From: a bacterium CG2_30_37_16
Lineage (GTDB): Bacteria; Patescibacteriota; CPR2
Length of the DNA stretch: 32,498 nucleotides
Assembly (NCBI GenBank): GCA_001872945.1
Contig: MNYC01000019.1
Span: forward strand, 1-32,498
Direction of reading: 5' to 3'
Shown in pieces: positions 1-1,682 of this stretch. The position numbers were made by a program, and so were the translations under genes. Each line of letters opens with the position of its first letter. Position 1 is the stretch's first letter. The notes beneath the pieces are model-generated. The model worked only from the letters and a program-made list of their open reading frames with translations. It did no database searches and was not told the origin of the DNA.

Positions 1-84
1 TTTTAAAAAATGATTCTTAGGAATAATACTATCATAAAGGAAGTCTCCAAAAAATGAATCGGTGGAATGTTTTTTAAAAGCCAT
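1..84 (-). CDS. Transposase, N-terminal fragment (cut by window edge)
   Basis: Reading leftwards from an ATG at position 84, 28 codons stay open to the window edge. A GGAGGG Shine-Dalgarno-like run lies 4-10 bases upstream of the ATG. The peptide begins MAFKKHSTDSFFGDFLYD and continues with IIPKNHFLK. This resembles, from memory, the opening of IS5/IS1182-type transposases, where an aromatic segment is followed by an 'IP.NH.L' motif. Only the N-terminus is visible, so neither the DDE residues nor the element ends can be checked. It could instead be a degraded copy, and the family assignment is tentative. Confidence 0.5.
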   Translation of the reverse strand, partial: MAFKKHSTDSFFGDFLYDSIIPKNHFLK

Positions 85-276
85 CTAACCCTCCAAAATT
101 AATAACTAACTTATTTATATTTTAGCTTCCTAAGGCCAAAATGTCAATCATTTTAGGGGCGTTTTCTAAGTTATTTAATGAGCCTTTTTTATGTTTTTTA
201 GACAGCTTTTTTTCAAGAAATTTTAAAAAAGTAAGGATTTTGGGGAGTTTTTCAACGGTCTCGGTTAATTAACCAG

Positions 277-305
277 TTGACAATGGAATTCTTTCATTAT
301 ATAAT
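277..305 (+). promoter_or_regulatory. Consensus sigma-70-type promoter of a candidate ncRNA
   Basis: TTGACA at 277-282 and TATAAT at 300-305 are separated by exactly 17 bp, matching the bacterial vegetative consensus at all twelve positions. Transcription should start near 312 and run rightwards. No plus-strand coding gene lies between here and the convergent gene ending at 558. This is the strongest promoter I see in the window. Confidence 0.8.
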
Positions 306-311
306 ACTACG

Positions 312-549
312 ATCCTTAAATATTTAGGGATCAAAACACCTCTTTCTTTGAGCGGCTAGCTCTTTACCAACAAAACTTATTTCTTCAAGTCAATTTGGTG
401 TGCCCCTTTTGGGCTTCTGCTCTTTTATGATTTATTTGGAAGAAACCTGGGGTGGCCTTCAGGAAAAATAAATCAGAAAATTCGCTCCGGATGATACTTT
501 TAAACTTCAAAACTTTAAACCTATCTACCCACTCCGGAGCTTTTCTTTT
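312..549 (+). ncRNA. Candidate stand-alone structured RNA of about 240 nt, unknown family
   Basis: The segment starts just after a perfect consensus promoter and ends at a hairpin with a T-rich tail. It contains no plausible plus-strand ORF with a ribosome binding site. Several helices can be drawn by eye: a near-palindrome at 311-332 (GATCC...GGATC), GAGC/GCTC at 350-362, ACCAA/TTGGT at 366-399, GCCC/GGGC at 402-414, and a long compound hairpin at 428-475. In the last, TGATTTATTT pairs with AAATAAATCA, with GAAG/CTTC and ACC/GGT inside. I see no SRP Alu/tetraloop core, no tmRNA tRNA-like end and no RNase P conserved core. A 6S-like RNA or a lineage-specific small RNA remains possible. The minus-strand 61-codon ORF over the same bases looks spurious. 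Confidence 0.5.
484..549 (+). terminator. Rho-independent terminator closing the candidate ncRNA
   Basis: GCTCCGGA (484-491) pairs with TCCGGAGC (533-540), and TTTTCTTTT follows directly. The loop is long (about 41 nt), so the stem may also be a domain of the RNA. The gene to its right is convergent and ends at 558, so the stem could also limit read-through into it. Confidence 0.6.
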
Positions 550-557
550 ACCCAATA

Positions 558-1682
558 TTAAAACCCCCAACCCCCACCGGTGAATTGAAGGGTAAAATAT
601 AGAAGAAGTGATGTAAACAGGATAAAAATAGCTGTAATGGTTATTTTATTTTTTATTTTAGACAAAATCATAAACATGGGAAAAACCATATAAGTGTATC
701 TGGCGTTACTGATTCCCCAACTATATGACGAAATAAAGAGAAGCGAGGATAAGGAATAAATACTGTAAGTTGTGGGTAAAATCCTAATACCAATTAAGGA
801 AACTATTAAGCTAAAAAAAACAAAAATGGCATTCCAGCCGTTTGTCATCATGTAATAATTATCGGAAATAGAACTCGTCTTAGAAGCTATTTCTTTTACA
901 GTGTTAAATGACTCGGAAAACGGCACAATCAAATGTTTGCCGGAATAAAAATTTTGAGCATATTCTTGCTGAAAAAACAAAGGATCGCCAAAGTAATATA
1001 AATTGATCATTAAATAAATAAAAAGACCGATGACTGGAAAAATTATTAAATTCATTTTGTTTCTCAGTTCGACTTTTTTTGAAAAAAACAGATAAAAAAT
1101 AACCGGCAATAAAACAATTCCGGATGTTCTGGTTAGAATTGCAAGACCTGCTAAAACGCTTGCCACTAAATACTTTTCTTTTCTGACATAATAAAAAAAC
1201 ATAATAACCAGCATCAAAAAAAGACCTTCGGTGTAAATTGTTCCCGTAAAATACGAAATAGGATACAAAATAAACAAAAAAGTGGCAATATATGCCCTTT
1301 TTTCGTCAAACTCTTTTTTTACCAGTTTAAATAAATAAATTGACGCTATCAAAGCACAAATTAAAGAGATTAATATTCCGGAACCGACTAAAGACAAGGG
1401 CGTTACAGAAGAAACCGCCTTAATAAGTATCGGGTAAAGCGGCGGGAAGTGGCTTAAAAATTTTTGATAATCTTCCGGATCATTAGGCGATGTATAACCA
1501 AACTCCGCTATAGTTTTATATGCCCTAGTGTCCCACCTATCCCAGATAGAAATTGCGGTTTCATCAGGATATTTTGTATAGTTAAAGTTAAATTCTGCCC
1601 AATAAAATAAAAAGGCCTTAATTAAAATAAAAACGCAAATTATAAAAATGTATTCCCGATTTTTCTTTAAGAATGGTTTCAT
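558..1682 (-). CDS. PIG-V-like GT-C membrane glycosyltransferase
   Basis: This 374-residue protein has a membrane helix from about residue 11, then a large extracytoplasmic loop with the motif WDRWDTRAYKTIAEFGY (about residues 46-62), followed by many hydrophobic segments to the C-terminus. The pattern W-D-x-W-x-x-x-x-Y-x-x-I-A-x-x-G-Y is typical of PIG-V/GT-C mannosyltransferases. These transfer a sugar from a polyprenyl-phosphate donor on the outer face of the membrane. The paired acidic residues near the first loop (PDETAISIWD) fit the GT-C catalytic site. The acceptor is unknown, and no other glycan genes are adjacent. There is no clear Shine-Dalgarno sequence: a TAAAAT hexamer (1690-1695) lies 7 nt before the ATG, so the message may be leaderless. 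The gene ends head-on against the candidate ncRNA. Confidence 0.75.
   Translation of the reverse strand: MKPFLKKNREYIFIICVFILIKAFLFYWAEFNFNYTKYPDETAISIWDRWDTRAYKTIAEFGYTSPNDPEDYQKFLSHFPPLYPILIKAVSSVTPLSLVGSGILISLICALIASIYLFKLVKKEFDEKRAYIATFLFILYPISYFTGTIYTEGLFLMLVIMFFYYVRKEKYLVASVLAGLAILTRTSGIVLLPVIFYLFFSKKVELRNKMNLIIFPVIGLFIYLMINLYYFGDPLFFQQEYAQNFYSGKHLIVPFSESFNTVKEIASKTSSISDNYYMMTNGWNAIFVFFSLIVSLIGIRILPTTYSIYSLSSLLFISSYSWGISNARYTYMVFPMFMILSKIKNKITITAIFILFTSLLLYFTLQFTGGGWGF

Follow-up and report, generated by a model that had tools for sequence, protein, structure and literature searches.

Does a stretch of about 240 nucleotides that lies between a consensus promoter and a stem with a T-rich tail encode an RNA in its own right, and what would such an RNA do in the cell? 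This question is raised by positions 277-549 of the window, which is the entire 32,498-base contig of a CPR2 genome of 0.9 Mb (98% complete), and which a sequence-only reading had singled out as the site of a stand-alone structured RNA, possibly lineage-specific. The sister genome used for comparison, candidate division CPR2 bacterium GW2011_GWC2_39_10 (record LBVV01000018.1, hereafter G001), is the sole further member of the genus, while the collection for class CPR2 as a whole comprises 16 genomes (G000-G015). The exact transcription unit is kept in G001 and absent from the 378 other genomes of the phylum sample, and we are confident that a real RNA gene, structured and stand-alone, lies here (Table 1), whose product is most likely a lineage-specific small RNA (sRNA) acting in trans.

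Table 1. Features of the RNA locus and of its immediate surroundings (positions in the window).
Feature	Position	Strand	Remarks
Multi-copy insertion sequence (IS) end, 5' part of a transposase-like gene reading leftward	1..262	-	Outside the RNA; minus-strand frame MAFKKHSTDSFFGDFLYDSIIPKNHFLK
Promoter TTGACA-17-TATAAT, sigma70-type, 12/12	277..305	+	Consensus match; spacer conserved too
Structured non-coding RNA, ~240 nt	311..549	+	Fold z -3.8; 88% identity with the G001 copy (z -3.4)
5' hairpin H1, 9 bp	311..332	+	At the inferred 5' end; a single loop base differs in G001
C/U-rich linker CACCUCUUUCUUUG, candidate pairing seed	337..350	+	Identical in both genomes
Hairpin domain H2, inner hairpin 365-400	350..422	+	Predicted fold
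Compound hairpin H3: 10-bp outer stem, asymmetric internal loop, 7-bp apical stem, UGGC loop	428..475	+	
Terminator: 8-bp GC-rich stem, A/U-rich interior, then TTTTCTTTT	484..549	+	Conserved in G001
Convergent PMT_2-type glycosyltransferase gene	558..1682	-	Neighbour also in G001; outside the RNA

Both genomes of the genus carry one copy of the unit. Between them, identity reaches 0.95 in the promoter region (271-311) and 0.88 over the RNA, and is 0.46 and 0.48 in the two 60-base flanks, so that the conserved block starts just 5' of the -35 box (at ACCAGTTGACA) and stops just 3' of the terminator T-run (at TTTTCTTTTACC). For the same pair of genomes, RNase P RNA is 0.89 identical, genes are about 0.85 identical and the convergent PMT_2 gene is at 0.85, so that its rate of evolution matches that of RNase P RNA and is that of a functional RNA. 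The sequence-only reading had seen no open reading frame on this strand; the plus strand of the unit has none above 43 amino acids, and indels of 2, 1, 1 and 9 nt between the two copies rule out a reading frame conserved across the unit.

So far, the range of this RNA gene is one CPR2 genus. A covariance model of its 143-nt core matched 2 of 380 phylum genomes, which are the two members of the genus; blastn searches in the order and class found no copy in any class genome besides G001; and the exact core motif, searched in 85,000 species genomes, was found in the G001 record only. Following hrcA synteny through the other class genomes turned up no additional copy, and weak matches near a tRNA in G002 (E 0.01) were rejected as chance.

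The promoter is indeed a twelve-of-twelve match to the consensus, from which transcription would start near positions 311-313. Genome-wide, we counted nine such perfect sites with spacers of 16-18 nt for about 1.7 expected by chance, indicating that the consensus promoter is used in this organism and also that the site described here is not unique. Further perfect promoters that are conserved lie at L095 6847 (+) with L163 3575 (-) and at L125 842 (-) with L173 7610 (+); some of these other sites precede sequence without an obvious gene start, where further RNA genes are possible.

The RNA also folds clearly better than its shuffled versions: its predicted energy is -61.7 kcal/mol, compared with a mean of -45.5 kcal/mol (sd 4.25) for shuffled sequences, none of 200 being as good, and shuffles are beaten in both homologues. 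The terminal stem with its T-rich tail is present too: the stem at 484-540 is particularly strong (z -6.5) and is directly followed on its 3' side by TTTTCTTTT; a simple terminator scan missed it because the interior of the stem exceeds 8 nt. This terminator probably serves both of the convergent units, acting in either direction. The proposed 48-nt compound hairpin, H3, stood with one correction: it folds when taken alone (-12.9 kcal/mol, z -2.3) and is the best conserved element of the RNA (47 of 48 bases identical in G001), but, judged by energy alone, the best fold predicted for the window copy has a competing long-range helix (343-466).

Energy thus leaves the window copy with two rival folds, and comparison with G001 distinguishes between them. 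The long-range, rod-like fold has 6 of its 38 pairs broken in G001 and was rejected as not conserved, whereas the local fold made of H1, H2, H3 and the terminator has 3 broken pairs out of 65, all at helix ends. Among the other pairs of the local fold, 57 are identical, 2 are kept despite a one-sided change and 3 involve gaps. In H2, two exchanges between G-U and Watson-Crick pairs preserve pairing in G001, where the two outermost pairs and one pair at an inner end no longer form. Substitutions are also rarer in paired than in unpaired columns (5/127 versus 11/98; Fisher p 0.04). The local fold is therefore a well-supported model, short of proof because these two sequences show no double compensatory change among the 65 pairs.

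Considering that the sequence just upstream of the promoter belongs to a mobile element, we asked whether the locus could be a decaying or chance region, either an IS end or the remnant leader of a lost gene. The IS stretch at 1-262 has two other near-identical (99%) near-whole copies and one partial copy, which all stop at the base corresponding to position 262, and these three copies sit at contig ends (G000 contigs C30, C37 and C50). Such a multi-copy element breaks the assembly; its transposase, which starts with MAFKKHSTDSFFGDFLYDSIIPKNHFLK, is reminiscent of the IS1182 type, and an 11/12 promoter at 119-147 (-) reads into the transposase gene. Insertion took place 14 bases before the -35 box, without damage to the promoter. 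Since the IS ends at 262 and since the G001 copy, beside hrcA, does not have this IS next to it, the RNA is no part of this element, which excludes the IS end that the sequence-only reading had itself considered. Regions homologous to the unit and devoid of conserved stems or promoter, also considered there, were not what G001 showed, as its copy keeps both. With conservation ending exactly at the promoter and at the terminator, decay or chance is very improbable. The surroundings in G001 are those of a normal intergenic region, where the RNA gene and a CIRCE-controlled hrcA-grpE operon, followed by dnaK, point away from each other; a link with the heat-shock response was rejected, since in the window's genome hrcA is found on a separate contig and has another neighbour.

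The two genomes share the downstream side and differ upstream by rearrangement, and the persistence of the PMT_2 neighbour may suggest that the RNA is a cis-antisense regulator of this convergent gene, acting through 3' ends that overlap or through one terminator used by both genes. In the window, the T-run ends 8 nt from the PMT_2 stop codon. In G001, however, about 160 nt separate the terminator from the stop codon, conservation resides in the promoter and the internal hairpins rather than in the zone of overlap, and linkage and function are inseparable with two genomes, making this regulator improbable. As had been noted from the sequence, the adjoining gene is convergent; no gene follows that the RNA could regulate in cis, and such a role is therefore unlikely in general. 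Another reading would have the locus encode a small mRNA, since a 14-codon frame within H3 (MIYLEETWGGLQEK) is common to both genomes and carries a single substitution, which is synonymous (TTG to TTA). One substitution is nevertheless weak evidence, the ATG has no ribosome-binding site upstream, other frames are disrupted by indels, and this ATG and the stop codon are placed within or next to the two arms of a perfect 10-bp stem, which accounts for the conservation; we thus hold a coding function to be very improbable.

Does the RNA then belong to a known family? The Rfam scan, which took in the whole genome and included the covariance search suggested by the earlier reading, gave no family match for the segment; at low threshold, one Listeria sRNA and models of eukaryotic snoRNAs and miRNAs came up, all far below cut-off and attributed to chance. 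RNase P RNA and tmRNA were located elsewhere in the genome as single copies, in agreement with the statement that no core of tmRNA, SRP RNA or RNase P RNA is visible at the locus. The same genome also has group I introns at L092 4117-4380 (-) and L108 896-1160 (-), one of them within a 23S rRNA gene, and two c-di-GMP-II riboswitches, at L125 4217-4303 (+) and L109 6288-6374 (+), in what is a reduced CPR genome. As for SRP RNA, neither a model match nor an Ffh-binding motif was found in the segment, and no SRP RNA was found in the 16 class genomes. This identity was excluded, as neither Ffh nor FtsY nor any SRP RNA seems to exist in CPR2 genomes. Searches for SRP54-family GTPases (Ffh or FtsY) gave none at a convincing score in the 16 class genomes, with 14 of 14 controls positive, and motif scans of both members of the genus agreed that SRP54-type GTPases are missing. 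The SRP system, held to be nearly universal, thus appears absent throughout class CPR2, which would be unusual, and the silence of the SRP RNA model appears to be explained by loss. Our search of a literature library for SRP proteins in Patescibacteria found no report of this absence.

The suggestion of a 6S-type RNA was not supported, since there is no Rfam 6S match and since the 5' and 3' ends lie in separate local hairpins in both homologues. The 6S model (RF00013) matched neither the window nor any of the 16 class genomes, and this silence is weak evidence, as nothing was found in 8 of 14 control genomes either. A broader possibility is that the RNA binds a protein or the polymerase through H2 and H3 rather than pairing with other RNAs, as a 6S counterpart, a scaffold or a decoy. 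The near-invariance of H3 and the size of the RNA fit this idea, and with no 6S RNA detectable in the class a 6S-like role could be vacant, even if the missed controls make that absence say little. Yet the RNA has no closing stem, both ends being in local hairpins, its conserved fold includes neither a rod nor a central bubble, and it is restricted to one genus, so we consider such a structural role unlikely. More specifically, it is quite improbable that the RNA is an abundant housekeeping-type regulator of this CPR2 lineage, for example an unrelated replacement of 6S RNA binding RNA polymerase or the ribosome; if true, this would be a regulator in bacteria that dropped the SRP system and have no recognisable 6S RNA.

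Coming back to the preferred reading, an sRNA acting in trans, the linker between H1 and H2 is the sole long, mostly unpaired and fully conserved stretch of the RNA. In the predicted fold of the window copy, its 5' half is open (0.9 or more) and its 3' half is unpaired at about 0.3-0.5, while accessibility in G001 is about 0.8 through most of 337-350. The linker resembles the anti-Shine-Dalgarno tail of 16S rRNA (CACCUCCUUUCU); mimicry of this tail was rejected, since the resemblance is no better than chance (218 of 2000 shuffles). The best predicted conserved duplex joins the linker to the ribosome-binding site of a family-2 (GT2) glycosyltransferase mRNA (-18.4 kcal/mol, both genomes). The number of strong conserved duplexes was reached by 1 of 60 plain shuffles but by 17 of 80 shuffles that keep CACCUC, and the best duplex energy was matched by 9 of 80 seeds retaining CACCUC with the rest shuffled; the predicted targets are thus not better than matched controls. 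A crude motif scan found no Hfq, and a KhpA-type KH protein is present in G001.

On this basis, we propose that the RNA would be transcribed constitutively from its sigma70-type promoter, that transcription would stop at the terminal hairpin and that H1 and the terminator stem would keep the RNA stable. The linker would then most likely pair with purine-rich ribosome-binding sites of some mRNAs and lower their translation; H2 and H3 would form a scaffold or bind a protein, for which the KhpA-type KH protein is a possible candidate. Taken as a whole, a trans-acting base-pairing sRNA with an anti-Shine-Dalgarno-like linker is a tentative proposal, to which we give slightly less than an even chance; action in trans is plausible, and pairing is our favoured guess rather than a result.

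Hardly any small RNAs of the candidate phyla radiation have been described, and a search of a literature library found no paper on small RNAs of CPR2. That a genome of 0.9 Mb keeps a conserved RNA with such a strong promoter suggests that dedicated RNA genes persist even in reduced CPR bacteria, and the RNA described here offers a concrete probe for metatranscriptomes.

How does this RNA compare with known systems? Like bacterial SRP RNA (RF00169), it is a stand-alone structured RNA, but it has neither match nor motif, and the partners Ffh and FtsY are apparently absent from the class. Like 6S RNA, it is stand-alone, intergenic and of about the right length, but it lacks the model match, the closing stem and the central bubble. 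Base-pairing sRNAs with a C-rich anti-Shine-Dalgarno seed are a known bacterial type, of which RsaE is an example. With RsaE-type sRNAs, it shares an own promoter, an intrinsic terminator, stable hairpins and a C/U-rich linker with predicted complementarity to ribosome-binding sites; it differs in that no sequence homology was found and in that its candidate seed is not fully accessible in one of the two folds predicted. By sequence it is a new RNA family, though on present evidence one of a familiar kind.
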